A DNA stretch of 64,000 nt from Agelas oroides (Eukaryota; Porifera; Demospongiae; Agelasida; Agelasidae), in NCBI GenBank assembly GCA_949130485.1, contig OX422195.1, positions 6,167,066 through 6,231,065 on the forward strand, given 5' to 3'. The position numbers and the translations under genes are program-made. The notes below the pieces were generated by a model. The model saw only the letters and a list, made by a program, of their open reading frames with translations, was not told where the DNA came from and ran no database searches. Within the stretch, counting starts at the first letter, position 1. Each line of letters begins with the position of its first letter. Positions 17,520 through 57,640 of the stretch are shown here, piece after piece.

Positions 17520-17673
17520 GGAGGGGGGGGGCACGGCGAGCGCGAAGCGCGAGGCACGTGACGCTCAGATGTTTAACATGCTCCAGACCTGACAGTCAGA
17601 CCTTAGCCCAAGTCAAAGTCAATGAGAAGGAAAGAAATAAAGAGTGAAAATAAAGAGGGAAAAGAAAGTGACA

Positions 17674-17986: not shown

Positions 17987-18064
17987 GTGACTCAGGGAGG
18001 GACTCGAACCCGCCACCTGGCAAATGGCCTGCCATGCTCTAACCAACTGAGCTACCGAAGTCAC
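17987..18064 (-). repeat. tRNA-like SINE head, unit 2
   Basis: Same 78-bp tRNA-like sequence as in the first unit, 313 bp further on. Confidence 0.7.
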
Positions 18065-18092
18065 TCGGCAACTCAGTGGCCAAATTCAAGTA

Positions 18093-18855: not shown

Positions 18856-19012
18856 TACTTAAGGCTGAGCCGCCAGGGATCCAGCCAAGGCGGATACCAA
18901 GCTGGCATGTTCGATGGGGAGGGCGCGGCGAGCGCGAAGAGCGAGGCGCGTGACGCTCAGATGTTTAACATGCTCCAGACCTGATAGTCAGACCTTAGCC
19001 CAAGTCAAAGTA

Positions 19013-19748: not shown

Positions 19749-20034
19749 TAGTCTCGCAAGCCACACCCTTCGCAGGAGAGAGGAAGGGTCTGGTCACGCT
19801 GCAACTACCGAGTTGTCGCCGAGGAACGCAATTATCGAACATTGCGGTTAGGTAATAAGATGCTGACATCCGCTAAACACATTGTGACGTAATTGTACTC
19901 CATGGCAACAGATGCGATCTACGAAGAGCGCGGATCTGATTGGTCACGACAAGTTTCTGTCGTGGCGACAACTCGATGGTTGCAGCGTGACCAGACCCTT
20001 CCTCTCTCTGCAAAGGGTATGGCTTGCGAGACTA
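19749..20034. mobile_element. 286-bp foldback element with 9-bp target duplication
   Basis: Long inverted arms begin TAGTCTCGCAAGCC and end GGCTTGCGAGACTA; inside they share gaccagaccctt / aagggtctggtc and a further complementary block. GGGCTCAAG flanks both sides exactly (19740-19748 and 20035-20043). A 9-bp duplication is typical of Mutator-like transposons, so this is best called a MULE-type MITE. Confidence 0.8.
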
Positions 20035-20223
20035 GGGCTCAAGTTCAAAGCACTAATTCCTAGTGTACTTAGAAGTCACTCACACGCTAAAACTAACCTG
20101 TAGGTAATTGGTTTCAAAAAGGTAGTAACTTAGTCACGCGGAGTCAGACGCTCACTCTTCCGCTTTTCGTGTGAGTCTGGTTCCGCGAGACTACCAAATC
20201 AGGCACACATGTTGTTCCCAGGC

Positions 20224-20284
20224 TAGTCTCGCGGAGCCAGACTCTCACACGAAAAGCGGGAGAGAGTCTGCCCCCGCGAGACTA
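20224..20284. mobile_element. 61-bp foldback element, 9-bp target duplication, nested
   Basis: The arms TAGTCTCGCGGAGCCAGACT and the inverse end GCGAGACTA belong to the same family as the 19749-20034 element. TTCCCAGGC is duplicated at 20215-20223 and 20285-20293. The target is itself an arm of the GCCTCGTTCCCAGGC palindrome family, so one foldback has jumped into another. A related but more diverged copy lies at 20131-20193. Confidence 0.75.
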
Positions 20285-20356
20285 TTCCCAGGCCCTGCTT
20301 TCCGTCGCTCGCGATCGGGAACCTAGGAACGAGGCTACATGTAACCACAAACAAAC

Positions 20357-20500
20357 CTCGCTAGAGGAAATCTCCTGGGCTGAAGTTTTGATGGCCACGG
20401 TCACGCCCCTCGACTTCCATCTGCCTTTGTACACCGTTGCAAATCTTCCTACTCCCACCTGATCCTCAAACACCAGATCGCTGTACTCAATCGTAGTCAT
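20357..20500 (-). pseudogene. orphan first exon of the multi-kinase family
   Basis: A 144-nt frame from the ATG at 20500 to a GT donor. It has exactly the length and phase of exon 1 of the plus-strand kinase genes at 30125 and 61320. It begins MTTIEYSDLVFEDQVGVGRF, has the glycine-rich loop and the VAIK lysine, and ends ISSSE. The sequence further along the minus strand (below 20357) is foldback repeats with no exon 2. It is therefore an inverted, detached copy, or the first exon of a gene destroyed by insertions. The reading frame itself is open. Confidence 0.7.
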
Positions 20501-30124: not shown

Positions 30125-33100
30125 ATGGCTTCTATCGAGTACTGCGATCTAGAGTTTGGGAAGCCGCTGGGGACGGGAGGATCTGCAACGGTGTACAGAG
30201 GCAGATGGAAATCGAGGGACATGGACGTGGCCATCAAGACTTCGGCCCAGGGGATTCCCAACAGCGAGGTAACCTTGTTGATTTGCTTGTTCAGGACTTG
30301 TAAACAAGGTCATTTATGATGTTGCCTACTGTTTTTACTTATGCGTATGCGTAACTATGATAGCTGTATGTTGTTGTTGTTGTTGTTGTTTTGTTTCGAT
30401 CAGGGGAGAGTCTAGAATATAGGTACACAATTCATCAATTCAGTGTGCAAAAATGATACATTATACAGCAAAGGGATTATGTTGCTAATTGATTTTGGAC
30501 TAGCAAAAGCAATAGTGGGTTGGAAAAAGATAACCTTTTTTGTTAAACGTTTGTGCTGCAGTAAGTTAAGCTGTTATTAAATCTTGACCAGAATGTCATT
30601 ATGACAAGTGGCGAATGTTATTGAAGCACATGTAAAAATGGAATTTCCTAGAAGCAACCAACAAAGTATGAACAGCATCACAATATGCTTACACCATCTT
30701 TACATCTTGTGCCATTTTCCTCACCATGCCTTGTACCACTAATTTTATGGGTGCAAAGGATGTTGGAATTGTAATGGTATTTCAACAGTGCACAAATGAT
30801 TAATATATTTTCAGGGTTGCAGTTGAAAAATATGAAGGTCATTGTTTGTGTAGTTCAAGATCTGATGGGTGTGTAAAAACATCATATTTTTATGAGATTA
30901 AATTGCATGAGTTGACTGCTGGAACAACATGATGGTTCACAGCCATAATGAAATGCTAAACCAAACTGTTGCCATCCCCTTCAAGGTTATAATTTATTTA
31001 GTAGTGACTTAACCCTCTCTACAGTCAGGAGAGTGTTGTATACCTTACTCATCTCTCTTCAGCTGGAAGTCATGAGATTGGTGGACCACCCCAACCTCCT
31101 ATGCTTCTATGGAACTGTTGTACAGCCACCCATATTCTGCATTGTAACAGGTTAGCTACTGCTATTACAGCCTACAAGTGTAGGACTGCTTTTTAGTTGA
31201 GGTTAACTGCAGAGAGACCAGCTTTAAAGTGAGGAAGCCCAATTTGGTGATGCCAAAAGCTGGTTTAGAACAGCAAGATTACAACATACCTCAGCAACCA
31301 TAAGCTATTCATCTCTACCTCTACGTAAGCATGCTCACTGGTATGCAGTTTGTATAGAATCTACTTACAATCTACTTACGTAGTGATTGAGAAGGTATTT
31401 GTAGACCATGAATACACATGTGCAATGTGTAACTGTCACAGATCATTATCAGTCAGCTATGTATGCACTGGTCTCTGGACATGAATTTGATTTACTTTGC
31501 TAAATACAGTTCTGTAAACAACAAAAATTTGTCGGTGGGCAGAAATATCTTTTGGAATGATCTTTTACCTGTAACTTATGTGAAAATGGTTAGGGACTGA
31601 ACTATCACTCTACTAGTACGCGGATTATAGACTTAAACACTCCAAAGTCCACTAAAACATGTATCAACTACCGATTACAGAGTAGGTTAGACCAAATGAA
31701 TGTGTTGTTGCTTAAATCTGCAAATAGAATTGGTGCAGGCAACAGAAAGGGGAGTGGCCCTAGTGGATAATTATAAAATGCTTAAAGTACAAGAATCACA
31801 ATGGTTTTGTTAAACTATAGAATTATGTAGACTCCACCCATCACAAATGGGACCAGGTAGGTCTGTGCAACAACACAATTATATGGTCTGGCCTTACAGT
31901 CTCTCTTGAACACGGATTTTGTCAACTAGTAATACGCTAGCATGCTTACCATTTTTATTATTTCTAACAATATATAAGGTCTTGCACTTCCTGTCTGGGG
32001 GCCAAGAATGGCTTTCTGTAACCACATATTGCAGAGTATGTAGAACATGGAGCTCTCTTTGATTTTCTTCATCAAAATGACTTTAATGCTGACCGAAACC
32101 TCATGTGGGCAAGGCAGATTGCTGCTGGTAAGTCTTTGCATATGTTAACCAAGTTTCCAGCTCTTGTTAGTGGTTTTATTTGATTTGCCTATATAGGTAT
32201 GAAATACCTCCACTTTGATGTCACAGACCGGGTGGTGATTCATGGGGATCTGAAGTCAAAGAATGGTACAATATCATTCCAGCTTGTTCTGGGATGAGGC
32301 TAAGGACCATATGTAGAAACTGTTTGAGCAGGTTGAAATTGCAGGTTCTGAGTACTATTTTATTTCAAAAGCTATACCAAAATCTCCCCAAAATAAGCCC
32401 ACCTTCGAAAATATACCCAGCCCCCCTTTTTTAATGAAGTAATTGCAAAGGGTGCTTTCTCTTGAAAGTTATGTCCACCTATTTATGCACTGGTAGTACA
32501 TGCTGTTATGTTAAGCAAGAAACACTGAAGAAGCAGCACTGTGCAAAGGACTAACAAATGAAGGCAGACACCATTTGCATAAGCCATGTGAGGTGGGTGT
32601 ATTTTTGAGACAAATATCATAATACTTCACTTTATGGAGATGTTACACTACAACATAATACTATTTGGGAAATAAATGCTGACTTATAGGAGATTTTTGT
32701 TGATGTTTTGCTGAGAGGGTTTAGTTCTAAATTGGTCTTTATCTCATGCCAATAGTTTAATTATACACTGGCCTTATACCACCACTGTTCTACCTCCAGC
32801 TACATTAAATGATGTTACATTAACATGGGTCCAATACTTATTATATTAAAGCATCTGTGCATTAATTGCCCCTTGCAATATACACATTGTCTGTTTGCCA
32901 GATATAATGATATTTTATTCTACTCCTCAGTTCTAGTTTCTGCTGACAACACAGTGAAGGTCAGTTTTTTGCATGCATTACACAATCCTATTTGACATTG
33001 TACATTTTTAATTTTGCTCTGTAGATCTGCGATTTTGGTTCCTCAAAACTTCGTGATCAGCTACCAGGAATGAGTATCCACACTACCACCAAAGTCCTTG

Positions 33101-34516
33101 GAACTCCAAGGTGGATGGCTCCAGAGGTATGTATATACCTGTCTTCAGTTGCTGCAAGGAATGCCAACTGAAAAAATTTTTCGGAATTGTTGGTAGCATG
33201 GACTCACACAGCAGGCAGCATTTGTGCATGTTTACACAGCTTGGCATAAGTAGACTATATCTGTGCTCTTTCCTCCTTGGTATACTTCATTATGTGCAAG
33301 TTGTCTTGTTCAAAAGGTGCTAGAGAACAAGCCCATCTCCAAGCAATGTGATGTCTACTCCTATGGTATAGTGGTTTGGGAGCTGCTTACACACAAGATA
33401 CCTTTTGAAGATGTGACTGCTTTGTTGCAGATATGCCAAAGGGTGGCAGTAAACAAAGAGGTCAGTAATCACAGTGACTTAGCTATAGGCCTCTCCCTAC
33501 CTCCAGTGTATTTGCTTCCTGCATGAGATGTTGTCACATTTCCAAACACTGTATAATGTAGAGGATCTGGGAATGGACCTGTAAATAGAGAGACTTGGGA
33601 ACACTTTTAATCATGATTCTACTAATGTAACCTGCACCCCAAAATGCTCACAGCACTTGCTTGTTTGCTAAAAGGCTTTATCATCATACTCATCTGCCTC
33701 AAATGATTCCAGACATAAGTTTACTTAGCACTTCCATCAAGACACGCCATACATATGCAGTACACAGTATGATGTGTGTGACAGATGGCACAACACAAAT
33801 TTTAGAATGATTACAAAGCTTAACAGTTTCAGCATCAAGGGAGGAGCTAGGCAGGAGTAGGACCTTATCTATCACAATGAGCAAGGCACAATTAATCTCG
33901 ATTCTATGGTGAACATTAAAATAATCTCTCTGCCACAGATTGTCTATGTAAGTTTCAGTGCTGTACAAGAGATATGATGTAAAATAATGTACTAATTACT
34001 ATGCTTTATATCACATAGCGGCCTCCTATTCCCGAGAACTGTTCGCCTGCCCTGGCTAACCTGCTAAGGAAGTTTTGGGACCCCAATCCAAGAGTAAGAC
34101 ACAAGTAGAGTTGGTACTAATAATTTAACAGTAGTGGAAATTTCCTTGTTTAAACTGCTACATGCACAGTGGGTGACTTTGCATAACATCTAGGCCTGTT
34201 TTATAAGGTTAATGTGGTTCGTTGATTGTTCACATATAAGTAATTGCGCCTGGTTCTCCAACATTGTTTGAAAATGGGACTAAATTGTCATAGTATGGAT
34301 TGTGGCACTCACTGCTAGCATTCACCAAAACATTGGAGACTTTACTGAGGTATAATAACAAATTGGATGTCTACTGAAATCTACTAAACCTAGCCTTATT
34401 TCTAGGCTCTTGTGCAAGCCGGTTTACTGTGCTGTACATCTTCTTTCAGCTTCGTCCAGAGTTTACTGATGTTGTGTCAGAAATGGAGCAGTTGCCGCAT
34501 ATGATAACACCCAAAG
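30125..34516 (+). other. kinase domain 1, TKL type (MLK/ZAK-like)
   Basis: Residues 1-270. Visible are the glycine loop GTGGSATVYRG (16-26), the ATP lysine K38 in VAIK, LEVMRLVDHPN with the helix-C Glu, and the hinge region EYVEHGALFDFLH. The catalytic loop is HGDLKSKN (124-131; the HRD Arg is Gly but the Asp is kept). DFG is at 144-146 and GTPRWMAPE closes the activation segment. The DLKSKN loop and overall spacing fit serine/threonine TKL kinases of the MLK/ZAK kind. With K, D and DFG present it should be active. Confidence 0.8.
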
Positions 34517-37500
34517 GTATGGAAGCAACAAGTATAGGTCTGCTTTCTCTACTTCAAGATTTTGCCTGTTGTACGGGCAATGCACTCCAGGATGTAATTT
34601 AAAAAGATTCAGGTAATATAACACACAGGCTAGAGGAAGCAATGGACGTCCAACCTGAGCAAATATTACAAAGCCTTCTCAAGGGTAGAGACAAGTTGTC
34701 AAGGCAACAAGGTTCAGAGAATGCAAGTTAGGGCTACGTAGAAGGCTTGGATAGGTGAGAAGGGAGCCTGAAAGTCCAGATAGAAAGAGTTCTTGTCAGA
34801 TCTTCCAAATTGCAGGACCTGTGCATCAGAAGATTACAAATATAGTCACGTTGACAGCTAACTAACAAATGAACTAAAGTGGACTAGCCCGAGAAAGACA
34901 TTGAGCCATTTTTTTGATGAGCACATTGTAAAACAAGGTGTGTGATACGTTGCTGCTTTGACTGACCCAAGCCAGGAGATGTAAATAGTTCATTTATATC
35001 ACTGCAAAAACCACTCAGTTAAAATAACTCCTGAGTGGGTTACTCAGGTTTCAGGTTTCACTGAACTGGTGAGTACTATGAAGAGAATTCACAAACATAT
35101 CACAATCCATCATCCCCCTCACACTTCCATTAGCTTGCAAAGTGCTACTACAGACGCTTGTCTGTGGTAGCTCTTTGCTTCTTAATAAAGCCTGATAGAA
35201 TTGTGAGAGGATGATGGATGGTGATTACAGTGTTTAAATTTTCTTCATAGTATATACTCACCAGTTCAATTAACTTGAAACTTGAGTAACCACTCTGTGA
35301 GGTTACTTTAACCAAGTAGTTTTTGCAGTGTATATAGCTTAGCAAAATACGTGAAAATACTACTCAGAGCTTAAAATCTAAATTGCAGCTGAATGGTGGT
35401 GTGTTTTTTAGTAGTTCGAGGGGCTTATTAGCTCACTGTTATGCCTTAATCATAGTAGTTTTCTGTGGCTCCATGTTCTGGATTTGCTTGCCTCACAACA
35501 CCCACTTGTATTGTTTTTCACATCACATCTTGATTTATCAACCACAGAATTGCCATCCCAACTGCAGAGCTCCTCTCAGATGTTGAGTGTAGAGGTATGT
35601 TGGTAGCCTAGTTCAGGGCCATACCAAGCATAGAGTTAGGAGGGGCAGCTGCCTCCACAGAACTTGACTTAGCACTCATTGACTATTACTCTGTTACTGT
35701 TCGCTAGTCTCGCAAGCCAGATCAGCCAATCCCAGCGTGGATCACTTTCAGTATGCATGCGCTGTGTGTGATGCTGAAAGTGATTCATGCTGGGGTTGGT
35801 TGGATCTGGCTTGTGAGACTGCATGCTGACCAGGCAGAGTCTTTCATAGCCTTCTCCCCAGGCCCATTCGTTTGGTGTAGGCCCTAGGTGGAGAAGTTCC
35901 AGTAGCTCAGCAAGTGACGATGACAATGAGCTGCCTGATGAGCCTTTTCTCAAGAAGCTCTGTGTGTATTTCTGTATGCCTCAGAATGCACCAGAATGCA
36001 CTCAGAACACCTAAAACTACTAAAATTTTTCTGGGGGAACACCCCCCCATACCCCCTTAGAGTGAAGGGCTGTCTTTGGTAGCCATGTTCTCTACTTCAG
36101 CTAATAAGTTTGCACTCCCTAGACGAAGAAAGTTATGTACGGCCCTGTAGTTCCAATGCCTCCACTTATTTAGTAGTTTGCATTTTTCCTTTTTGTGTAT
36201 AAGTTGGTTGATTTCCTTGACTTGGCTGATGTGTATTTCTCTCAGACTGAGCATTTGGAAGTTCCAAAGCAACGACCTGTTCCTATGCCAAGAACTCCAA
36301 AGGTACAAAGTAGTTTGATTGGAGCACAATTTAACCTGACTAGTTAGGTTGTATATGGCATTACATGAACTTATGCAATGACTGTTTGAAATTCGGTTAT
36401 GTGCATGTTACACCAGATCAGTTCAACCAAGTGCTGGGAAATTTGGCATATGTGACTTTGACACTGCTTGTGTCTGACTATGGTTTTCAAATATATTTAA
36501 GCACCCTTGAATTTTTCGGTTTAAAGGATTAAATTTTGGAGTGTTCAGGCCTTTCATTTAGCAGTATACAACAGAAAGGTGTTGGACATTTCAGATCTTG
36601 TACGCAATTTTTAGGTCACTATAAAGCTATGGTAAAGCGTAGCACTGAGCTCTCTGGTAATCTGTGAGCATATTGTGGTGCAGTATAATTTACTAGACAC
36701 TTTACATTTAGTTTGCCTAAAAACTTGTAGGAGATGTGCTCTACCACTTATCAGATAATGTACAGCATTTCTGCACCTCCCTATGGCTTTATTGGTACTT
36801 CAAATTTTTTGCTTACTACTACCCCTTTAGCTACTTTTGACAGGCTAGGTGGTATTCTTAATCTGCACATAACCTGCTACTGAAGAATCGTCTGACATTT
36901 GTGTACACTAAGATAGAAGGCTAATGTTGCACAGCGAGCGCTAGCTACCCACGGGACATCTTTCGTCCTCCGTTAGCCCAGCGACGATAAAGGGGCATGG
37001 TCAATAGCTCATGCTAAACGCGAAAATTAAAACCGCGAAAATTTCTTTAGAGAGGAAACAGGATTTTCACGGAAATTTGGACCAGCGAAAATTTCCCGCT
37101 ATACGGTATCTGATGCACCATGCCACATATGTCCTGACATGGATTTGTTCATAATTAACTATGTCACAAGTTTATATGGATTGTACGGGTATTTCAATAT
37201 TTGTGGTAACTAGAAAACACTGTATAATCAATATTTTTCTTACAGCCTGTCCCCCGACCAAGGAATGCACAGGTATGTGTATGCTAACATTACGTAAACT
37301 TCATTCAGCATATGACATTACATGTTCTAAATCCAGTCTCTTGATTTACAACCACCAAAAGTCCACAGATTTAAGATACTTAACTATACAATATTGATTG
37401 TGTGTTGTAAGTAAGAAAAGCTTTACCTTTACTTACCTGTGATACTATATGCTATGCTATTATCATTGCAGAGTGGTTCTTTGGCAATGCCCCCAATTCC

Positions 37501-40500
37501 TTCTCCAAGACGTGGAAGATCTCAACCAAAACCAAATGATGTAATTTTTGTGATGATCATTTTTTGGTGACATAATTACACGCAAGTGTGCATATTCTTA
37601 GGCCACTCCAGATTAATTGTTTGCTTCCAACCAACCAAAGCTTTTAAGAGTTCCCTGATAATTGTTATATATATATATACCATCTCAAGCACTATAGCAT
37701 GAAATGGTTAAAATATTTTTAGGGCTGGGAAATTTATATATGAATGCCTTAGTTTATACAATCATGTAGTAGGCTATTTGCTTGTGGTCATGTTAGGTCA
37801 AACAATTAACCAATTATGCACTCATGTTAGACGTGACTCTTTCATGACATGGCATAGAGTATGTGTGAGAAGGCCATGAATATGCATTCTGAGTCTTACT
37901 CTTTCCAAATAGTTGGTGGCTGCTGATAATTTGGATTTGTAGCTATCTGTCATTTTTTTGGCAGGATGATGAATCATATGAAGTTGGTTACAGAGCAAGA
38001 AGCAATGCAATGCTAGGTGTACCTAGGCCAAGAAGCATCACCGACTCAGTAAATGTAAGCAAAGTATATTTCTTGTTAGCTTGGTAGTTTTGTCCCCAAG
38101 CTACAAATAGAAGACATTAACCTTCGTGCTTAAGCTGTATAGGAAGTGGGAAATGCCCTAGTATCCTAATGATTAGTGCAATGTGGGTCAAAGTAATCTG
38201 TGTAGATGGCCACTGAGAATAGCTGCTGTCACACCACACACTCTCGAGCTGCTAATTTAGGTGATTGTTAGTGACACCAATGATAAGACTACCAACACAA
38301 TGCAATAGCTACGTACCCTACCCGGTCTCCAAGTTTGTGGTCCATCACACAAATGGTGGTTACTCATAACTTACAAACTTACCAAAAGTGGATAGTTACC
38401 ACACTAAACAAAATTTTCATCAATTGCTGAGTGCCTTAGTGTGAGGCTACTAATCTTGCAGTGTTGGTTCTCAGTTGGCAGGGTTTGGCTTACATAATTA
38501 CACACTAGTATCCATCACACAAATGTCCATCATGCTTAGAATATACAAACATACATCACACTCAGGAATGCAAACATTTATCACGCTTAGGAATGCAATT
38601 TGTCCCCAGCGCTGTAGCAGCGCTAGCATTTTCATTGATTCATATGTGGGTCAGCAGAGTGCAGCCAGCACACGCCATCGCCAACAAGCGAAGGCAGAGA
38701 GCTAGACACAGTGGAGCGAAAAATAGAGAAGTTGAGTCTGAAGGGCCAGCAGAGCACAGTCAACACTTTGCAACACTGGGTAGTGGATGCAAGTATAGTC
38801 ATTGTGCTGAACTTTGTTAGCAACTGGCTGGGAAGTGCAGCAAGGTAAAGCAGAAGTTATTTGCGCTATAATCATTCTCAAAACTTTGTTTGCAATTCAA
38901 GAGCCATTAACTCCTCAAGATGGCTAGGTCTACTGTACTTCTACCCTTACATAAGTTTATATTTGTAACAGCAACTGTTGTTCATATGTAACAGGCATAA
39001 TATATGCACAAAAAAAAACAGCATAAACATGCTGCTGTCTGTGTGACAGGGGACCACCCAGGTTGGGGCCAGCAGAGGTGGCCAATATCTAGTCATTTGA
39101 TTTATTACATCCCAAGATACAAATTAAAATTGAGGAATACGGAATTAATGGCCATACATGTGCATGAAAAAATGAGGAAGCGATGGACATTTAATCTGAA
39201 TAGATATTGGGGCGTCTCTAATCGCTGGAATGGAATATGGAATGGAACGGTAGAATGGAAAATGGAATGGAACAGTGAAAGTACATAGTTACAGCTAACT
39301 CATGTAACTGACGCTGCTCAGTCTAGGTTGAACTACCTAGTGTATCTCTAGGGCTGTTATCTCACTGCAGAAGCTTTATGAACAAGTACAGCATTGCCCA
39401 CCGTCATGCTTCATTATCCTAGCATGGTACCGTAACTACCGTTGCTGGCTCATCATCAGATGCTTTGTTATTCTAGTCTTGCAAGCCTGACTCTCGAACG
39501 AAAAACAAGGGTCTGGCTTCACAAGACCATACTTATAGTCTTCGTAGACAAACTTGAATGTGCTTGATGGGAGAAATTAGTGCTCGATCCTCAGTTTCTT
39601 CGCTTCAGTCTTGTCTGTGCACCTCAATCCTCGGTCACACAACCTTAGTAGCAGCCTTCCTTTACACAGTAGTAAGCGTGACTCCTATGTATGGCACTGT
39701 AGCTGGTCTCCGGGGACTCCGAGTTCTGACCGTGATACCAGACAAGGAAGAATGCTGCTAACATGCACTGGACTTGCTCATACAGCCTCTGCACGGTGAG
39801 ATAAGAGCCCTAGACACATAGTAGCTAGCTCAATCTAGACTGAGAAGCATCAGTTACACGAGTTAGCTGTAACTATGTATATTCACCGTTCCATTCCATT
39901 TTCCATTCCACCGTTCCATTCCACCGTTCCATTCCATTTTCCATTCCACCATTCCATTCCACCGTTCCATTCCATATTCCATTCCAGCGATTAGAGACAC
40001 CCTAGATATTGGTTAGTGCCATGGTGCACCTACCCCAGGAATGAAACTCTTCATTCATTAACAAATGTGGGAAAGTGGTGCTAAATGACAAAACTATAAA
40101 ACAATTTAACCATAAAACATATTAATTAATTAATTAACTCATTTCTATATTTATTTGTTTGTTTGTTTTTCTGTTTGTTTGTTTGTTTGTTTGTTTACCT
40201 ATCTATCTACCTATCTATTATTTGTGTGTTTATTTGTTTGTGTATCTATCCATCTATTTATCTATTTATTTACTCATTGTAATAGCTTCAGTCATTCTTG
40301 TGCTAGAAAAAAAAAAACTGGCCATAGACAATTTGTCTACTTAGTGACTTGCCTGTCTGGCACTTCAGTGATGCTTTCCAGCAACACTAATGCTCCTGTT
40401 ACTCATGAAACTGCTAGAAAATGAGTGGTGTGCCTCATAAAGGCCTTTGATTAATTCTAGAGCAGACTTTTAACATGTCAATTTCTACACTTTTAGTGAG

Positions 40501-43500
40501 TGGCCAGTTTGTTTTGGGTCATCCTATGTACATATGGAGTACTACTGTACTTCAGGATATGAATAATCTTCTGATAGGAACTCAAGTTAGTACCTTAATC
40601 TTACAAAGTAGATCAAACCAAGCCCGGCCTGGATTGCTTTCAATAATCATCCTGGATTGGGAGTCCATGCTGGGTCAGTTTTCCAAAACTAGTCACTAGG
40701 TAACAGAGTTATATACGTAGTTGGAAGTTATTACTTTTGGTTTCTCTCACAAATGGAAGCATCTCATAACAAACCAACTTGCCAAAACCAGAGGGTTACC
40801 ACAAAAAAATTAACATGTTGGCCAATATGGCTACAAGTTGGTGTGCACCCAGTTCCAAGAGCATGAAACACTTCATCTAGTGCTCAAGAAGGGAATCATC
40901 ATGACCATTTTGCTTAACAATAAGTATGAAAAGAGAAGAGCAGATTATTAGTGATATACCAACAGTGCTGTCTAGCCAAGTAAATACGGCACTTCTTGAA
41001 CATAAAGTGTGAATAACATGATTAGCCATTAGAAGAAGAAAGATATACAGTGTTGCATAATGCATGAACTGCATTATTCTGACACAGGTGGCTTTACTTT
41101 TACTTACTAACCACTCTGTCTAGTTGCAGGAATATCATAAGCAGGTATTCTTGTCGACTCCCCTTCTCTATTTTGTCAGGTACTTTTGCATGCCAAAATG
41201 AACTTTCACTTCAGAGGTAGATGGTGCATGGTAACAGCCTGCCAACACTATAGTTTTATTGCAAGAAAGCTGCAATACTCCTCCAATACCAAAGTGCCAT
41301 TCTCTGCTGGCCTCATGCAACACAAGGAACTTTTTTGTTGAATAAAACATGGCTAGATTCAAGAGAAAATATACTGTATGTGATAAGCACATCTCACTCA
41401 CCAGTATTTAGCATATGGCTTAGTTGCTGCCGCATTCAGTAAGTACAGGCATCTATTTACAAGACTGTGTTTCACTCTCAGGGTGAAGTTAAGCCCTCAA
41501 TAAGGAGCCCCTCTCCAGAGGAATATACTCCAACAAGCAGGGAAGATGATTTGGAAAGTGAACCAGAGGGGGGATTTGTATATGATGACCCACAAACCCT
41601 CTCACTTCCACCGGAGTTGCCTGCCATGACCAGTAACCCCCAGCCTTTGCAAGATGCTCATCCTGTCTGGGCTGTATCCAGGGAAGAAGTAGAGCTGTTG
41701 GATGATGAGCTTGGCAAGGGTGCATGGGGTATTGTGACAAAGGCATGGTTTCGGGGTGACATTGTAGCAGCCAAACGTATCCATGAAGCATTGAGTCAAG
41801 ACAACCCAGAGTTTCTCTACAAGGCTGTCCGAAAGGAGTTGGACATTGCTTCCAATCTCCGTCATCCAAACCTGGTCCTCTTTCTTGGAGCTGTCATTGA
41901 AGGGAAGCTCAGTGAGTTCATCATTCTGAATGAGCTCATGGATAACAGTCTCCGGAATTTTCTAGCTGAGGGGCAGCTCTCCAGGTCACAAATCAAGTCT
42001 TTCAGCATTGACATTGCACGAGCTCTTAACTACCTCCATTCTTGCAAACCCAAGCCACTCATACATCGAGATGTCAGCAGTGCAAATGTATTGCTACAAC
42101 GTTTCAGCCCAGATTACTGGAAAGCCAAACTCTCCGACTATGGAAGTCTTAAGGCCATTAATCTGGCCTGTACACTATCTCCTGGCAATCCCGTCTATGC
42201 TGCACCAGAAGCCATGCATGTGGGAAAACAGTCCTGCAAGATGGATACCTACAGCTTTGGTGTTCTTCTCATCGAAATGCTCAGCCGCCAGCTACCAATA
42301 CTACAGCTGCGGCCAAAGTTGCTCCAGGAGATTGAGTGGCAAGAGATGCATATGCTGATTGAGACGTGCATTCGAGCATATCCTGATGAACGTCCAGAAA
42401 TGCAGCAGATCATTAGTTCACTGGAGGTATGTGTACATTACCTTAGCTACCGTAAACTTGGGATAATAAGCACTGTTCCTATTTTCAAATTAGCAGCCAA
42501 ACTGGGTGCTTCTTTACATAGAGAACTTATGGTAACATGTTACCTGGCAGCTATGATATCTTTGGGGCCAATAGTTGTTAATCCTATGTTTGTAGAATCG
42601 CAAAAACCAGAGGTACTGTCAGCGATCAAATTTATCACACCAACTTTTGGTTTAGTTCTTGGAACTTCCTGAGAGGTCTTTGCCAATTTATTGAGAGGTC
42701 AACAACAACAGCAAAAACTTCAATCCACAAACAAAAAAAAATTCCTTACTCCTTCTCTCATTTTCTACTGCAATCATGTACTGTTACCGATGTCAGATGT
42801 GGCTTATTTTCCTACGATGTGACATTATTCATTGGTTATGCATATGTTGGTTATTATCTCATGCCAATGGCTCACTTTTAAAACCAGATATAAAAGCTGG
42901 CTGTTACACCACCCAGAAAGCAAAGTTGAATCAGCAACCAAACTCCCATTTGGGTGATAATGAGTACCATTGAGGTGCCTATTTATGTATGGATGCTTGT
43001 AAACATGTAGTTTATGTAATCCAAATAGGTGTTAGGGTACTCAGTCTATAAAAATGTAAAAAAGCAGGGTGTAAGCACAACCTACTTTAGCTTTGAAAAA
43101 TTGGTGGTAATTTTCCAGTAACAATTACTTCATTTAATAATTCAAAGTAACTTCTTATTTTGCAGCACTTGGCAGAGAAGCGTCCAGTTCGGCAGGTATT
43201 TCACATTAGTTCTGACACTATATACCAGTATCCATACATGACTTTGTTGACATTTTCTCATTCTTGCTATGACCTAGCTTATCAGCAACTATGTGGAGAT
43301 GTAAGTTATCTTTCTCTTCATGCAATACTACCTATAGCCCCATATTTAGCTATACTTTCATGGTTGTTCTGGCATACAGGAGATGGTTTGTTCCTTCAAT
43401 AGCACGGATTGAAGCTGAAAACAAGCTAGCAACTGAGGTTGGTAGGATAAGACTCACTTTTTCTCTCAGCACAACTTCAGTTTGTGCTTCACTCTGCATT

Positions 43501-46500
43501 TTAGGGGAAGGAGGGAAACTTTCTAGTGAGACGTTCGACTACAAAGGGCTGCAAGTACTCACTGTCTGTTTTGTAAGTTTCATATTGGCCCTATCCCTAA
43601 ATAAAGATACTAGCAGCTAGCCTCATTCTCAGATTTGCAGGTACAGAGTCTGGGAACAAGGCTAACCAAATGTTGTAGACTTTCAAGTTAGCACATGTAT
43701 GAACCAACTTTGGAGCTGAAAGCTTGCTCTGTACAGGAGTTACCCTTGCCCTCAAGCCCACCTGGTTGGAGAGCAACCTGGAGCAAAACAATTGCAAGAA
43801 GAAATGTTGCATTACGTAAAGCAAGGCTTTCAACCCCTAACTCTGAGGTTTTCATTGTGTTATATTTATCTGTTGGAATTCTTGCATTGCCTTAACAGTC
43901 ATAATGACAGAGTGTTGCACTATCGCATCTGGCAGAGCCAGAGTGGTGAATTCTACATTGATGACAATGTCCATTTCCAATCCCTTGAAGAGATGATCGA
44001 GTTCTACAAGAAATCTCAAGCAGGTTCATTTTATGACCTTTATTATGTGCTGCAAATGTGGATATTTCATGACATGTATTCTGTTTCATATAACAGGACT
44101 CTGTACCAAATTGTGTGAATACATACCAGGAAGCCTAATTCACCAGTCTTCACTTACTGGTAAGACTGACGTGTCTGCAATGCTTATCAATGTCAGATGC
44201 TATGCTTATGCTTATACCTTAGACAAATTATGGGAAATCCCTAAAGCAGAATTGACTTGTGGATCAGAGATTGGAAAGGGGCAGTGTGGGGTGAGTGGTT
44301 TGATCTCAACATAATTTATATGGGCTTGGAGCCTAACTATTCACAGTCATGGTTGAGCATTTCAAAAAGCTTTAGGCCTAATGTATAGTGCATGAAATTC
44401 AAGGAATCATATCTCCCAATGTTATTCTTAGTTACCCGCATGCATGCTCTAGAGGTAGTGTTGTACCTATGATTACTAAGAAGCATTCTCCAGGTATCTG
44501 AGATTCATGCAGCTGAGCGTACGTATTTCTAGCTGCAGTCAGTTGTCACCAGTGAAAGTGGCATTGAAGGCCAAAATGCATAATACTCTCCTTGCATGTT
44601 GCACATATTTTCTTAGCTAGTAGTTATTCCGAGCTTTGTGCTGTAAACATGATAATATACTTACATGGTGCGGTAGCTAGTAGCTATTCCGAGCTTTGTG
44701 CTGTAAACATGATAATATACTTCATACATGGTGCGGTAGCTAGTAGCTATTTCGAGCTTTGTGCTGTAAACATGATAATATAGGTGCGGTAGCTAGTAGC
44801 TATTCCGAGCTTTGTGCTGTAAACATGATAATATACTTACATGGTGCGGTAGCTAGTAGCTATTCCGAGCTTTGTGCTGTAAACATGATAATATATGGTG
44901 CGGTGTTTACACTTGTCCCTCTGCAGTATGTGGTGGCTGGAGTGTGGAAGGGATTTGGTGTTGCTATCAGAGTAACCAAACAGGATATTCTGGATGAAAC
45001 TGGGCTGCAGTTCATTGGAGATGCTATTGATATTTTGAAGTGAGTTCAAAGATGCTTTTATCTACTATGCAAGACAAACATAATACCATTAATGCCATGA
45101 AAGACGAATTGTACTGTAATATTCGCAACTTTTATTTTCCAACTTGCCTTTCTCCAAGGTGTGGATTCTATAGATATATGGTAGCCTCTGATGTATGCAG
45201 TTATCAGTTGTGAACTATTACTGTGTTAGCTTGAATGCCAATGTAAGTGAAGCAAACTTGCGTATCGCTTGCAGTAGATCTGTCCTGTACTGCAAGTAGT
45301 GAGAAGATCAAGGGTGGATTTGGGTGGGGAGAGGGTGCTAGAGGGGTCTGCAGCTCCTCCTTCTTATAAGTTCCCTCTGGTAAGCACGGCCTATATTGAT
45401 CACCAATGAAACTATTAGAGATAGCATCTCATAGATGTTTGAGTACCATTCTCCGGTAGTTTGACTAGTATCCAAGTTCAGAAATAGCTTTTCAAGGCCT
45501 TTCAAAGAGAATTTTTTTGTGCTTTGTGCGGGAGTATCCATCAACGTTTGAGTACCATGGAATCAAGGGGTGCTTTGACAAATTATGGGCATTCAAACAC
45601 CATTTTTGAAGAGGATACAAGTTCAGAAATAGCAATTCCAAAGCTTTCATATTTTTGGGGGGTTTCCTTCAACTGCCTCCCCCCATGTGCCGTATAGCGG
45701 CATGCCTAGGCAAGCACCATCACACTAGCCTCCCCACTCCTCTTGTGCAATTCTAGATCTGTCCCTGAGAAACTTTTGTCTAAGTAAATCAACATGGATT
45801 GGGGCTTTTCTAGCAGGTGGAGGATAGCACAATTAGTATCTGGTGGAACAAGTTGAGCAATATCTGCTTGTAGATAAGCCAAGAAGTCAAACTATGTGTG
45901 AAAGATGATTCAGAAGTTGGTCCACAAGAGTCTTCCTGCATTCCTGTATTCAAAGTCATATGTTCATGGCTGATTTTCCATCACAACAGCTGTCAGTAGA
46001 CAAAAGTTAGTTGTATATACAGTGCATCCTCGGTTATCCGAACACCTTTGGTTATGGCACACTTGGGAAGTGTTCAGATAAGTGAATTTGTTCAGATAAG
46101 TGAAATTCATCCAAAAATTAATAGTAAACATCACATTATATTGTGATGATGCTAGCTTTAAAAAAAAAATTCTCCACAGTCAGGATAGAGCAAACAACAT
46201 TGGCCTGGTAACAAGCATGGCTTTCTCACTCTGTTGCTGGCCCAAACCAAAAATACAGTGCTCATCTAGCTTCGGCTGCACACCGATCTTCAAGCGTCTT
46301 TTTCTTCATGCCCATGTCGGCCATTTTCTTTGAGAATCTTTCAGGATTTGCAACTATAGTCGATCATCTACTTCCATAGCACTCCGTATAGGATCTGTAG
46401 CCATGAGCTTGCAAATATCCAGCTTCTCTTCGATAATCAATACATTTTCGGCACTCCGCGTTGGAAAACGCAAGATTTCGCAATCGCCTCAACCCCGTAA

Positions 46501-49500
46501 ATGTGGGTGTGGCTTGTGAAATTTGTGTTCGGATAATCAAGGTTCAGATAACTGAGGATGTTCTGTATTGTATAGGCTGAGATATAAGATTGTACTAATT
46601 TATCAACCAATTAAGTAACTCATCATCTCAACACTATATTGAGTTTTGATTACAAACGTGTAGGGAGTTCCATCATGAGAATTTGGTGAAATTCCATGGG
46701 ATTTGCACTCAGGAAGGCCCTCTGCTTATTGTTACTGAACTGATGCCCAGAGGTTAGTTATCATCCTAACTACATACAAAGTTTCAAACTGTTACTGGTA
46801 AACGTATGTTCTCTCAGGCTCCCTAGACAAGTACATCAAGCAACACCAGGAGCTTTTGGATCGAAAAGATGTTCTTCTGGATATGGCCACCCAAATCTGC
46901 TCTGCATTGAAATTTCTTGAAAACAGAGGAATAATTCATGGAGATTTGGTACATTGTAGCAAACAACTTGTGTGGTATAGGTTTTAAAATGCAGGAGGAT
47001 TGAGTGAATACAAAACAGACAAATTCTGACTGAACATTGATAAGAGATTTGAAAACAGCATAAATGAATTATGCGGAAGCTGTTCACTGCAGCACTGTTC
47101 CTAGCCATGTCCAGAATTGAGGCCAAAATCAAGATGCTCAGTGTCTGCATATAAAAATAGATGGCCTCCTGCTCATGAAATGTTCATCTGTTCCACACAT
47201 GCAGGCTGCTCGCAACTGTCTGGTTGGACAAAGAAATGTTGTGAAAGTGGCTGACTACTCCCTAGCTCTTTACACAAGCCCTCGCAAACCATCACGGACA
47301 GTGGTGTCCATTAGATGGGCAGCTCCAGAGCTCATTGTGCAGCAACCCATGTTCACCACCAAGTCTGATGTCTGGTCATTTGGTAAGAGTATAGTAATCG
47401 CCATATTTGCATGCTCTATCAAATGGCATAGTTCATAAGCCTGTTTACTATCTGTCTCATTTTGTGATGCTTTAATTATGGTGGATTTTCATCCAGGTGT
47501 TGTAATGTGGGAACTCTGGTCAGGTGCACAGACGCCCTATCTGGAACTACGCAACCAGGAGGTGAAAGGCAAGGTAAGGACAACATGTGACTCATCTAAA
47601 TGGTGGTACTTGGTTCAATGAAAGGTTGTTTCTTCAACAGCTGTTGGCTGGTCACCGCTTGGAAAGGCCTGGATACTGTCCTGATGAAGTGTATACTCTC
47701 ATGTGCACATGTTGGAATTTGGTTAGTGTACACTGTTGGTTCTGTGAGCCACTACAAGAATAGCTCTCATTTTCGTGATCTTATTACTTGCACTAAAATC
47801 TTGCCTCATTCCTGGGTTCAAGGCTGGGAATAATCAAGAATGGCATATATTTACTCTATGTTTCCGATTACTCTAGGATGCCCAACAAAGACCATCATTT
47901 GCACATCTTCATGAGGAATTCTGTTCACTGAATGCATGTGAAGAGTTTGGTAATATTTACCATGTAGACTTAGCACTTTATGACAATATCATATAACGTC
48001 ATGCATGTGTGCGCAGGTGAATTGCAAAGGCCACAATCAAGAGAGCTAGCTACAAGAAAGTCCACTTCAACTAGCAGACTTTATTGTGAGTGTGATTTAA
48101 ATGTTCTTATGGTATTACTTGCATTATGTCTCAGAAATTTATTCAATAGATGAGGGGTTGGAAACTCCAAAATCAGAACTTACTCTTGGGAGTCAGCTTG
48201 GAAATGGAGGATGTGGGGTGCGTCAGTAGCACAGTGCTTAGTAGGCCCTTGCCACTGCACATGCATGGCACAGGACATTTCAAGAATATTGGCTATTTGT
48301 AATGTACTCCTACAGTACATCGTAGCTGGCACGTGGAGAGGTATGGATGTTTCCATTAGAGTAACCAAGGAGAAGTCCATGAATAAAGATGGACTTCATT
48401 TCATGGAACAAGCAATCAACATCTTAAAGTATGTGCAATACGTGCATTTGTAAGTGACGCAAACAATTAACTCAACAATTCCTTCTATGCTTTGTTCTAT
48501 AGGGAGTTTCAGCATGAAAAACTTCTGAAGCTCTATGGTATCTGCTCTCAAGAAGGACCAGTTCTCTATATCATCACAGAACTGCTGACCAATGGTACAC
48601 ATTTATATTTATGTGCTCAAATCTAGTGATCTTGGTCTTTGCATTTGCATCTATGCATGCAACTCATTTGATGTGAACTCCTGTAAAAAGGTCTAGCTGG
48701 TACAAAAATGAGGTTGCTTAGTAACCGCAATCGTGGACATACACTGTAACGTGTGTTATTAGTCCTGCGCAGTGATATCGGTACAAAACTAATTCTCATT
48801 ATCAATTCTAACTGTGTATTACCTTCCAACATTGGTCACTTACAGCTATAGTAACTAGTGATAGCCAATAACTGTATTTGTTTACAAGAATGTTTGCCCA
48901 ACATGAATTGCTGAGTAAATATTCAAAATCTGTAATTCATTTTCACTTCCAGGTCCCTTGAATGTTTATCTCAGTGAGCACCGTGTACTTGTTGAGAAGG
49001 TGGAGGTACTTCTGGATATGGCCACCCAGATTTGCTCTGCAATGAAGTTCCTGGAGTCCAAAGAGATTGTTCACACAGATGTGGTATGTTTTTGGCAAAA
49101 GTACTTTCATGCTTATTGAACAGCTTCTAAGATTGAACTATCTTATTCTACTGCATAGGCTGCTCGCAATTGCCTTGTTGGTGACAGAAACATTATCAAG
49201 CTGGCTGACTTCTCACTACCCCTGTTTACTAGTGAGCGTACCACATCATCAAGCTGTGTACCCATTCGATGGGCAGCCCCTGAGATCCTTAAAGGGGGCC
49301 AGCCCAGTATCAAGTCTGACATTTGGTCTTTTGGTGAGTACTGTCCTTCCACAAGCTGGAAGGGTTACATGTACTACTTGACTGACCAATACATTTCAGG
49401 TGTCTTATTGTGGGAACTGTGGACTGCTGCACAGAAGCCCTACTCTGGTCTCCGTAACCAGCAAGTAACAGAAAAGGTCAAAAAATACATCTAGTTATGT

Positions 49501-52500
49501 GGCATAAAATTTGTCATCAGTGTATGATGTTATACAGGTGATTGCTGGGCACCGCCTTGAAAAGCCTGAACACTGTCCCCAGCAAGTGTATGAACTTATG
49601 AGAAGTTGCTGGATAGCTGTAAGCATTAATCTCTCTGAAACTATAATTATGTGCAATTGACACCATGAGGACCATTTCTGGTAATATATCATAGGGTGGA
49701 CTAATGAAATGAAATGTAGCCTTATACATGTGCCCTGGGTATGAATAAAGCTACATTCCTGGTCATCTATCATGGGGTGAACTTGAATTCCGTAAAGTCT
49801 GTGGGTATAGTTTTTATACATGCTATCATTGCTTTGCTTGTGAGCCAATTACCTGGCCATTAAATACTTTGCTATCCAGGATGCTGAACAGAGAACATCT
49901 TTCACAGCTCTGTATGATGGCCTCAAGTCCCTGGGTACTCCAGACGATATATTTGGTATGAGTATATCCTAGTCCTATACAGAACATAAAAGGGAACGTA
50001 AGGTTTATACATTCATATGGATGCAACACATGGTATCATTCTTCAGGAGTAGTGACAGGATACAGAAGGGCTTCTTCAAAGCCAACTCCAAAGCATTCTT
50101 CGATTGCTGTCCTTTATGGTAAATTAGTGTTTTAGAGTGCACTTAGATGTAGGATTGTATTGAATGACACTATTATTTGGCAACAGACAGTGCACTTGAA
50201 ATCCCCAAGCCACAGCTGAAATTTGGTAGAGAGCTTGCAAGTGGAAAATTTGGAGTAAGTGATGAAATTATCAGACCTTACTGAATGGTGTTAATTATTA
50301 TCACCTGCACAACCTCCAATAGTATGTGATGTCTGGAGAGTGGAAGGGTAGGGAGGTAGCCATTCGAGTAGCAAATGACAATGCTATGACTGAGGATGGA
50401 CTTGAGTTCGTAGAAGAAGCAGTTACAGCCATGAAGTATGTGTCAGTGGATTGCTAATATTGTTGGAAGTATCATTTTGATTTACTATTCCGTCATGTAG
50501 GAAGTTTGCACACCAAAACTTACTGAAGCTTTGTGGACTTTGCACTCGGGAAGGTGCATTGTATGTAGTGACAGAACTAGTGCAGCAGCAAGGTATAAAA
50601 TTATATGCATGTCTGTGTGTTAACATGTGTATGTATGTATGTAGGTAGATAAATTCTATATTTGTGTTTGTCCATTAAATTAAATAAATATAATAAATTA
50701 AATTAAATTAAATTGAGGGGGTCAGTTGAAAAAGGGGATATGTGTTTTATAACAACCCCAAAACGTCGAAGGTCAGCAAAATGTTTTCATCGCCCACCAA
50801 GATATCAAGGCTCAATTTGAACTGTTCATGATTTCAACTGATAAAATTAAGCCTTGTTACTGAGTAATACAATGAATATGCTTTGTTGACCTTTGACCTT
50901 TTGGAGCTAATGAAAACACTTATCCCCTTTTTCAACTGACCCTTAATTTTATCACTGACCCCTACCCCTAAGCTCACCTTTAACCAGTACCTGGGCAGTG
51001 ATGGACTAAATGTGGGCAGTGAAAAACTGACAAAATGACACAAAAACTGTCATGATTGATTAGTTCTAAAGTTTTCTGGAGGAACATGCCTCCAGACTTT
51101 CCATGGATCTAACTTTGGCCCCCACAAATATTCACTCTTCATCTTCAATCAGGGACCCTCCTCAACTACATCAGAGAGCGACAGGAACTGATAGGGAACC
51201 AAGAAGTTCTCGTCCACCTGGTCATCCAGATCTGCTCTGCTATGGTGTTCCTAGAGGCCAACGAGATTATCCATAAAGATCTGGTAATTAAATGTTGTAC
51301 AGAGATGGATAGATAGTTGGTAAGCATCACCATGGTAACAGGTTTTTCTCCATTGGATGGTCTAGGAGCTCATTAGTCATTTAATGAAGATAGGGGTGAT
51401 GGCTACCAAGTATGTTAGTGCATATACCCCTCGTAGCTTCACTGCTTCGTACTACATGTATATGTGGAACAAGACCTATCAGACAGACAAATTGACAGAT
51501 GAAGTGACCTATTGATAGGCACACAGAGAAACAAATGGGCAGGTCAACAGTTTTTTATTGAGCTTTGGTTGTTCAATCTGCAAGTTGTAGTGTTTTGTGT
51601 TATTTTGCAGGCTGCGCGCAACTGTCTGATAACAGAGAATGATGTGGTGAAAGTGACTGACTTCTCCCTGTCTATGTTCACCTCTGATCGCAAGCCAGCA
51701 AAGACTTGCTTTCCTATCAAGTGGTCTGCACCTGAGGTCCTCACAGATGGCTCAGCCTCTACGAAATCAGATGTGTGGTCATATGGTCAGTACATTATAT
51801 TATCTGTTACAGAGAGGATGTTTCTGCATCACATTCTACTTGGTGGCATTATATGTATGCAAGGGTGATACCACCTTTTAATGTAGGGTACATCGGTTTT
51901 TGGATGTGCAACACCATTATCCAGTGTGAAAAATAACTCTTGGTAAACTGTTTCTTACTGCTTAGTTCAGTGCTGTCAGCATCCAGAAAGCATTGCAAAA
52001 TGCAACTGGCACAATTACTGCATGGCTAATTCAGCAATCGTCCCACTCTTCATTCCCACTTCTTTGTGCCTAGAAGGGCGAAAACTACTTGATGCATCCT
52101 GATGTTTATAAATTCGTGTTATCTCCTTTATAGGGATTCTGCTTTGGGAAGTATGGAGTGGAGGCTTAGTACCTTATCCTGATCTCAATCTGCAGAAAGC
52201 CGCAGAACAGGTACATTGGGACTGGAGTAGTTAAGAATGTGTAATCCTCAAATACATGGCATATACTTACCCATCACTGCTAAACTGTAACCATCATTGT
52301 ACACACTGTGATGCTATATGTACTACAGATAATGGCTGGCTGTCACCTTTTTAAACCACAACTCTGCTCCCAGGAAGTGTACCATCTCATGCAGCAATGC
52401 TGGCAGATGGTCAGTCAGTCTCAGCATTAAATTGTCAGTACTAGTTTTCAGTATATTGCTTTCTTATTTTGTTCACAGAAACCTGAAGATAGGCCATCAT

Positions 52501-52538
52501 TTGTGGTGCTACATGGAGAGCTAGCTTCTTTGGAGTAA
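30125..52538 (+). CDS. five-kinase-domain SH2 protein (47-exon model, about 1657 aa)
   Basis: Exons: 30125-30268, 31063-31150, 32035-32127, 32197-32265, 32931-32959, 33025-33126, 33317-33460, 34019-34093, 34450-34516, 35548-35594, 36246-36302, 37246-37272, 37472-37540, 37965-38054, 41482-42426, 43166-43195, 43278-43300, 43380-43437, 43505-43572, 43899-44023, 44097-44159, 44223-44290, 44927-45039, 46664-46752, 46818-46948, 47205-47382, 47497-47573, 47641-47721, 47877-47949, 48017-48085, 48150-48217, 48316-48428, 48503-48594, 48953-49083, 49159-49333, 49400-49476, 49538-49618, 49880-49955, 50047-50118, 50187-50254, 50323-50435, 50501-50592, 51153-51283, 51611-51785, 52134-52210, 52329-52409, 52479-52538. 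All have AG/GT borders and compatible phases; the ATG is in good context (aagATGG). No signal peptide or membrane segment: a cytosolic signalling protein. The weakest link is the 3.4-kb intron 38055-41481 (a 15-nt microexon at 41130-41144 is possible); two adjacent genes cannot be excluded. Confidence 0.75.
35000..35330. mobile_element. 331-bp TIR element in kinase-gene intron
   Basis: Ends CACTGCAAAAACCACT... and ...AGTAGTTTTTGCAGTG. Further inverted blocks cover gggttactcaggtttc and the cactgaactggtgagta / actcaccagttcaa regions. TATAT lies on both flanks as a possible target duplication. Confidence 0.7.
35706..35820. mobile_element. 115-bp foldback of the AGTCTCGCAAGCC family
   Basis: Nearly the whole sequence is one hairpin: agtctcgcaagccagatc pairs with gatctggcttgtgagact. 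Its ends match the MULE-type element at 19749-20034. Confidence 0.7.
36920..37110. repeat. CGCGAAAATT-type repeat relic in intron
   Basis: Several copies of gcgaaaat(t) with a terminal-looking ctatacggtat. It resembles the end of a dispersed DNA repeat, but the other end is not found. Confidence 0.35.
39210..40002. mobile_element. 793-bp TIR element, 9-bp target duplication, in kinase-gene intron
   Basis: Ends GGGCGTCTCTAATCGCTGG and CCAGCGATTAGAGACACCC, flanked by exact TAGATATTG duplications (39201-39209 and 40003-40011). Inverted similarity continues for about 150 bp and includes runs of the word ATGGAATGGA / TCCATTCCAT. A 9-bp duplication suggests Mutator-like origin. No transposase frame. 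It lies in the large intron between the linker and kinase domain 2. Confidence 0.85.
40143..40290. repeat. simple repeat (TTTG)n / (CTAT)n
   Basis: Mixed tetranucleotide tract, mostly gttt then ctat and ttta words. It generates spurious hydrophobic open frames on the plus strand. Confidence 0.85.
41482..42426 (+). other. kinase domain 2, TKL type with DYG, in one exon
   Basis: Residues 368-682, all in one 945-nt exon, in contrast to the finely split neighbours. An acidic/tyrosine-containing lead (EEYTPTS, GGFVYDDP) comes before WAVSREEVELLDDELGKGAWG. Then follow VAAK (K465), HRDVSSANVLL (HRD at 562-564), SDYG in place of DFG (586-588) and YAAPEAM (APE at 608-610). The C-lobe has SFGVLLIEMLSRQ. 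Catalytic K, HRD Asp and metal-binding Asp are retained, so activity is possible. The intronless state might reflect origin from a retrocopied kinase; that is inference. Confidence 0.75.
43380..44159 (+). other. SH2 domain
   Basis: Residues about 700-800. It has the full SH2 signature: RWFVPSIARIEAENKLA (betaA/alphaA with the alphaA Arg), GNFLVRRS with the phosphotyrosine-binding Arg at 728, KYSLSV, LHYRI (betaD His), GEFYID, and FQSLEEMIEFYKKS (alphaB), ending GLCTKLCEY. Everything needed for phosphotyrosine binding is present. It directly precedes a Src-like kinase unit with the usual linker LWEIPKAEL, matching the SH2-linker-kinase order of Src/Frk/Csk families. No SH3 domain is seen ahead of it. 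Confidence 0.85.
44615..44905. repeat. five-copy 60-bp tandem repeat next to exon 23
   Basis: Five copies of agctagtagctattccgag plus a tail ending in tacatggtgcggt or a shortened form of it. The array ends about 20 bp before the acceptor of the first pseudokinase exon at 44927. Confidence 0.9.
46020..46565. mobile_element. 546-bp pogo/Tigger-like MITE in intron
   Basis: Ends CAGTGCATCCTCGGTTATCC and the inverse of CAGAACATCCTCAGTTATCT, each flanked by TA. CAG termini followed by a CCTCGGTTATCCGAAC-like word are typical of pogo/Tigger elements. There is no complete transposase. Confidence 0.75.
48150..49955 (+). other. Src-like pseudokinase unit 2 (kinase domain 4)
   Basis: Residues about 1098-1370. 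Same eight-exon module. The glycine loop is GNGGCG, the ATP lysine position is Arg (VSIR, R1135), the catalytic loop is HTDVAARN and DFG is DFS (1249-1251). The C-lobe is well kept (RWAAPEI, SDIWSFGVLLWELW). It is joined to the preceding unit by the 69-nt linker exon 48017-48085, a basic serine/threonine-rich stretch. Confidence 0.85.
50187..52538 (+). other. Src-like pseudokinase unit 3 (kinase domain 5)
   Basis: Residues about 1394-1657, ending the protein at TAA 52536-52538 directly after QRPSF-type sequence (DRPSFVVLHGELASLE). The glycine loop is degenerate (ASGKFG), VAIK is VAIR (R1430), HRD is HKD and DFG is DFS. There is no C-terminal tail with a regulatory tyrosine as in Src. The linker exon before it (50047-50118) is basic and serine-rich (GYRRASSKPTPKHSS). 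Confidence 0.85.
50710..50949. mobile_element. 240-bp TIR element in intron
   Basis: Left end aaattgagggggtcagttga and right end its near-inverse (tcaactgacccttaattt). Both arms continue with aaaaaggggata / tatcccctttt. Confidence 0.7.

Positions 52539-53469: not shown

Positions 53470-57640
<4,171 letters not shown>

Follow-up and report, generated by a model that had tools for sequence, protein, structure and literature searches.

A candidate sponge gene joining two TKL kinases, an SH2 domain and three pseudokinases

The kinase ZAK (MAP3K20, MLT) carries a SAM domain, and in JAK proteins a FERM domain precedes an SH2-type domain, behind which lie tyrosine-kinase folds in tandem, one being a pseudokinase. 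Src has an SH3-SH2-kinase module, and the sponge Src-Aque1 family (PMC8662651) belongs to the same comparison. For Dictyostelium Shk1-5, a TKL kinase is reported together with an SH2 domain, the latter being needed in Shk1 for membrane localisation (PMC1420674). Here we analyse a stretch of 64,000 nucleotides of the sponge Agelas oroides (the window; contig OX422195.1, here C13, C13:6167066-6231065), taken from an assembly of 259 Mb, and within it one locus, gene A. On balance, and without great confidence, we favour reading gene A as a single host gene for a MAP3K-like scaffold that comprises a ZAK-like kinase, a Pro-rich linker, a second TKL kinase (TKL2), an SH2 domain, three Src/Abl-type pseudokinases (PK1, PK2 and PK3), a Tyr/Pro tail, a Lys/Glu-rich segment and a probable SH3-type domain.

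Among solved protein chains, kinase 1 of gene A (TKL1) is closest to ZAK (215 bits, followed by an EGFR construct with 189, matched twice, and CTR1 with 170), but it is joined to a second kinase, an SH2 domain and pseudokinases, and a Pfam search of seven pieces of the gene A protein, read up to E=1, showed no SAM domain. Like the Shk proteins, gene A has a TKL-group kinase and an SH2 domain in one protein (exons 16-22); compared by description only, it differs in its tyrosine-kinase-like domains, of which the accessible text on Shk makes no mention (PMC1420674). With JAK it shares an SH2 domain followed by tandem tyrosine-kinase folds, including a pseudokinase after the SH2, but its pseudokinases number three and an active tyrosine kinase is lacking: the last fold, which in JAK would be the active one, reads VAIR, HKD and DFS, the apparently active TKL domains are N-terminal, and a FERM domain had no Pfam match up to E=1 in the same pieces. 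As in the Src module, the SH2 lies directly before a Src/Abl-type kinase fold; unlike Src, gene A has changed catalytic motifs (ATP lysine, HRD and DFG) and no Tyr in PK1-3 at the place that we take to be that of Src Tyr416, located by counting back from the conserved Trp (PK1-type units have an activation-loop Tyr three residues earlier). No Pfam match to an SH3 domain was found directly before the SH2, nor any PF00018 match inside gene A among the 150 candidates, out of 173, that were scored. The best one-frame match in the genome, an SH2-kinase open reading frame (ORF) on contig C17, is 41% identical and keeps VAIK, HRD and DFG. Since gene A departs from ZAK, JAK and Src in a defining feature of each, we assign it to none of them. 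The architecture appears to be new, built from known domains, and its domain order was not described in any title or abstract opening found in the literature.

A separate Src-like SH2-kinase ORF on contig C10 (C10:9293115-9293852), with VAVM, HRN and ANFS and an SH3 match about 1.5 kb upstream, is apparently an independent Src-type pseudokinase.

Gene model and domains of gene A

An exon-by-exon splice model gave 48 exons between 30125 and 52538, with GT-AG borders throughout and a single frame of 1691 amino acids. The first-pass annotation had proposed one protein of 47 exons and about 1657 residues; its single in-frame chain stands, with the counts revised. The donor of exon 11 was set at 35963 and not 35961 to keep the frame, and this partly chosen border is the least certain. 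The full gene probably spans 30125-57640, with 55 exons and 1898 amino acids. Its parts, in window coordinates, are as follows.

30125..34516, plus strand: exons 1-9, TKL kinase 1, ZAK-like, amino acids 1 to about 263 (splice model, Pfam, PDB match)
35548..38054, plus strand: exons 10-15, Pro/Arg-rich linker (splice model, recurrence in paralogues)
41482..42426, plus strand: exon 16, a single exon for an acidic stretch and TKL kinase 2 (splice model, Pfam)
43166..43300, plus strand: exons 17-18, short spacer (splice model)
43380..44159, plus strand: exons 19-22, SH2 with FLVR (splice model, Pfam)
44223..47949, plus strand: exons 23-30, pseudokinase 1 with VAIR, HGD and DYS (splice model, Pfam, alignment)
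48017..48085, plus strand: exon 31, inter-unit spacer (splice model)
48150..49955, plus strand: exons 32-39, pseudokinase 2 with VSIR, HTD and DFS (splice model, Pfam, alignment)
50047..50118, plus strand: exon 40, inter-unit spacer (splice model)
50187..52534, plus strand: exons 41-48, pseudokinase 3 with VAIR, HKD and DFS; phase-2 donor after 52534, alternative stop at 52536-52538
53470..53586, plus strand: exon 49, Tyr/Pro-rich tail (YGYMTV)
54277..54442, plus strand: exon 50, Lys/Glu-rich segment, probably helical
55212..56916, plus strand: exons 51-52, probable SH3-type domain
57129..57640, plus strand: exons 53-55, acidic C-terminus with TGA stop

Pfam searches matched PK_Tyr_Ser-Thr five times (2.1e-58, 3.1e-31, 6.5e-76, 1.4e-74 and 1.8e-77) and SH2 once (4.7e-22), in an assembly that is rich in kinases (at least 148 PF07714 matches). 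Together with the splice model, these matches bear out the previously proposed order of TKL kinase, Pro-rich linker, TKL kinase, SH2 and three tyrosine-kinase-like domains, and they support the prediction of five kinase folds with one SH2; three of the folds are pseudokinases by their motifs. An additional exon seen by eye inside the SH2 (about 43737-43847) was rejected, as joining exon 20 to exon 21 gives an unbroken SH2.

Kinase 1 reads VAIK, HGD and DFG and kinase 2 VAAK, HRD and DYG; both are apparently competent. In the three tyrosine-kinase-like domains, the missing ATP lysine noted earlier is replaced by R in every case according to the alignment (VAIR, VSIR, VAIR), HRD has become HGD, HTD and HKD, and DFG has become DYS, DFS and DFS, while the loop Asp and Asn are retained. 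The same changes, Lys to R, HRD to H[GTK]D and DFG to D[YF]S, were present in all nine tyrosine-kinase-like domains read in gene A and its paralogues G1, D, U and G3 (see below). Catalysis by PK1-3 is unlikely, and the kinase fold appears to be kept. The nearest PDB chains to PK1 were Src/Abl-type kinases, ranked below an EGFR construct that scored through two matched stretches. Exon lengths agree between the pseudokinase units (68, 113, 89 or 92, 131, 175 or 178, 77 and 81), which indicates that internal duplication produced the array. Identity between the units is 46-56%, too low for an assembly artefact.

A homology-blind gene finder, with codon usage trained on ORFs from eight other loci and splice matrices from general knowledge, returned 30125-52538 at three of five exon penalties when applied to 29-53 kb (the other two gave 29833-52899 and 30125-51936), and 30125-57640 at all five when applied to 29.0-58.5 kb, matching 24-37 of the 55 model exons exactly. 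At a penalty of -5 the forward strand scored 147.1, the reverse strand 38.5 and ten dinucleotide-shuffled sequences 0.9-13.6. Because it chains exons over long distances even in shuffles, the gene finder is no test of gene boundaries.

Two introns hold repeats: intron 15 a fold-back element (39210-40002) with inverted arms of 51 nt that are 96% complementary, and intron 23 several tandem copies of a unit of about 50-60 bases, seen by eye at about 44620-44900. Rfam gave no match at gathering score within the window.

A paralogue family under selection

Gene A belongs to a local family: a single contig carries no fewer than six related loci. Six of the 145 scored matches to TKL2, that of gene A included, were at least 78% identical, and all six lie on C13 (A, D, U, G1, G2 and G3); the next reached at most 51%. 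Two of the paralogues begin within the window.

61320..63266, plus strand: paralogue D, first six exons (kinase 1), running on past the window
6858..20500, minus strand: paralogue U, exon 1 (20357-20500) and exon 2 (6858-6944), running on upstream of the window

Paralogue G1 holds PK1, PK2 and PK3, with unit-by-unit identities to gene A of 84, 84 and 75%. In the tree, the A and G1 copies paired with support of 1.00 for PK2 and 1.00 for PK3, and with only 0.61 for PK1, among the PK1, D and U units. U has PK1 and retains exon 31; one homology-guided model also places a remnant resembling exon 32 ahead of its exon 48. In D, PK1 runs into an exon-48-like end. From their exon content, U and D look like deletion derivatives of a longer array, each left with one unit. 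G3 likewise has one pseudokinase unit in the stretch examined; its SH2 reads FLVT and not FLVR (C13:6501452-6501520) and may be without phosphotyrosine binding. G2 is known from search rows and one TKL2 locus only. Linker exon 10 recurs in D, U and a further copy, E, and linker exon 12 in E. The first-pass annotation had seen neither this cluster, the second triple array in G1 and the one-unit loci, nor the seven further exons of gene A to 57640.

The array and its neighbouring domains are under constraint. The ratio of non-synonymous to synonymous substitution rates (dN/dS) relative to gene A was 0.15-0.31 across 13 domain comparisons of more than 100 codons each: TKL2 0.31, SH2 0.26, PK1 0.19, PK2 0.18 and PK3 0.26 for G1; TKL1 0.26, TKL2 0.20, SH2 0.18 and PK1 0.16 for U; and TKL1 0.15, TKL2 0.27, SH2 0.27 and PK1 0.19 for D. 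The alignments were made without exon 5 for TKL1 of U and D, and without exon 30 for PK1 of D. Short or saturated comparisons stand outside this range, namely PK3 of U (18 codons, 0.21), PK3 of D (38 codons, 0.38) and exon 51 (58 codons; 0.18 for G1, dS saturated for U). No stop codons occur in the compared exons. We conclude from these ratios that the dead kinases are maintained.

Decay of the gene or array to a pseudogene, or an artefact of assembly, would be in keeping with the lost catalytic residues and the large, repeat-bearing introns; given the open exons, the dN/dS range, the divergence of the units and the occurrence of the triple array at two loci, we regard this as highly improbable.

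Other sequences related to the family were observed. On C13, kinase-1 exons followed by an exon-51 copy, with no TKL2 match between them, lie at C13:6022195-6054022 and may represent another short form of the family. Two partial copies of kinase 1, F and E, lie at window coordinates 86104-100648, where overlapping frames suggest frameshifts. Between exons 1 and 2 of U, long retrotransposon-like ORFs were seen by eye (8034-12127, minus strand). On contigs C20 and C7, TKL kinases that share about 50% identity with TKL2 are preceded by long coiled-coil-like stretches rich in Ala, Glu and Arg; C7 has a large array of such kinases. Searches with three TKL2 queries found no relative among 31 candidate stretches in IMG/VR; in GTDB, two of 124 stretches matched, both from Lactiplantibacillus with 24-25% identity, and were taken as ordinary kinases.

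Extent of the polypeptide

We are highly confident that exons 16-48 encode one protein, and both of its ends require discussion. At the C-terminal end, the first-pass annotation had let the gene stop at 52538. The bases of that stop also form a phase-2 donor, found at the same place in A, D and U; U has the donor without a stop codon. Exons 49-55 follow exon 48 in phase, without a further start, and end with TGA at 57640; in A, U and G1 alike, exons 50, 51 and 52 follow the array with order and strand unchanged, and the CpG observed/expected ratio (o/e) before exon 49 is only 0.10. From this we consider extension to 57640 likely, and the earlier end probably incorrect. The alternative, that the protein ends at 52538 and exons 49-55 belong to another gene of a kind also present on contig C12, draws on the in-frame TAA directly after exon 48, which D has together with the donor, and on C12:8451501-8459500, where a copy of the exon 50-52 module (exon 51 90% identical) stands with no significant kinase exon in 8 kb. 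The failure to find exon 49 in the paralogues or an exon 51 match in the stretch of D examined also weighs against the extension. The gene finder preferred one gene over a split at 52.5-53.4 kb by 6.6-8.4 units, a margin smaller than the 9 units of the start and stop penalties alone. We regard this alternative as unlikely.

Exons 51-52 encode a probable SH3-type domain. When four homologues were compared with Pfam, that of U matched SH3_2 at 2.2e-4, just under the cut-off, and helically extended SH3 (hSH3, PF14603) at 0.17, with 12.9 bits vs a cut-off of 25.7; those of A, G1 and C12 had no Pfam match, which weighs against this assignment. The Lys/Glu-rich segment before the probable domain resembles the arrangement of hSH3 in FYB/ADAP, but the Pfam matches of the U homologue are below all cut-offs. 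AlphaFold modelled exon 51 alone poorly (pLDDT, its per-residue confidence score, 60), a PDB fold search with this model gave no match (best E 2.6), and exon 51 used as a profile query on PDB sequences gave nothing up to E=10. SH3 exons also occur downstream of D (C13:6245554 and 6246689; PF14604, 3.5e-12 in a search of the excerpt), with no direct phase join to D exon 48, and downstream of G2 (C13:6434490).

At the N-terminal end, kinase 1 had been placed in one polypeptide with the SH2 and the array, and we judge this rather likely from the synteny and the phase of exon 16. At five of the six loci, kinase 1 precedes TKL2 in the same orientation, and no further domain of the family was found in the interval. 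The acceptor of exon 16 has phase 0 in all six, which show no in-frame Met at a matching position of their alignment. No convincing alternative first exon is shared between the gap of A and those of D, U and G1 (one weak protein match each, E 0.014-0.046); the gaps of U and G1 share several weak protein matches, the best at 1.7e-4, and one DNA match of 95 bases. At exon 1 of A, D and U the CpG o/e is 0.61-1.14; before exon 16 of A it is 0.10.

Several findings point instead to two neighbouring genes duplicated as a pair, a ZAK-like kinase gene from 30125 to about 38.1 kb and a gene for TKL2, SH2, three pseudokinases and the SH3-type domain that starts, with an unseen first exon, at exon 16. 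Tandem copying of two such neighbours would also give the same synteny. In G1, the element shortly before TKL2 is an SH3 half-exon (PF00018, 1.5e-4 for the excerpt, 0.15 genome-wide) and not a TKL kinase; the 24 kb examined upstream contain no kinase 1, and the nearest kinase-1 matches stop about 34 kb upstream, a copy of exon 51 lying in the interval. Kinase 1 is present twice upstream of both G2 and G3, and at E it occurs without a TKL2 match nearby; kinase 1 may therefore be a gene of its own, although the overlapping frames of E resemble those of a decaying copy. Exon 16 of A contains an in-frame Met, reading through the donor of exon 15 meets a stop within about 45 bases (by eye), and the DNA before exon 16 of D is not CpG-poor (o/e 0.66). 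The preference of the gene finder for one gene over a split at 38.06-41.4 kb, 6.4-12.6 units, again compares with start and stop penalties of 9. We consider such a gene pair a serious possibility, if short of an even chance.

Proposed mechanism and significance

The interpretation given in the first-pass annotation is partly supported. Taking gene A as one polypeptide, we infer from the domain content a signalling role as a tyrosine-to-MAP3K scaffold. Tentatively, the SH2 would bring the protein to phosphotyrosine sites, and the fold-keeping pseudokinases would serve as docking sites or hold the protein in an inhibitory clamp. Self-closure may be brought about by the SH3-type domain and the Pro-rich linker; upon release, the two TKL kinases, chiefly the ZAK-like one, would drive a MAP-kinase cascade. 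In its working the protein would resemble a JAK or Src module that passes its output to MAP3K-type kinases.

Taken as a whole, the picture is of a polypeptide of 1898 amino acids with five kinase folds, in which a maintained, SH2-linked triple pseudokinase array would gate two TKL/MAP3K-type kinases (phosphotyrosine in, MAP-kinase out), and of a family in which the front end, kinase 1 or SH3, may have been exchanged. We hold this combined picture to be plausible, somewhat below an even chance. Three pseudokinases kept by selection next to an SH2 and two apparently competent kinases would provide a natural test of linked-pseudokinase function, and also of the way in which phosphotyrosine reading and Ser/Thr-type kinase output came to be united within a single molecule in an animal lineage.

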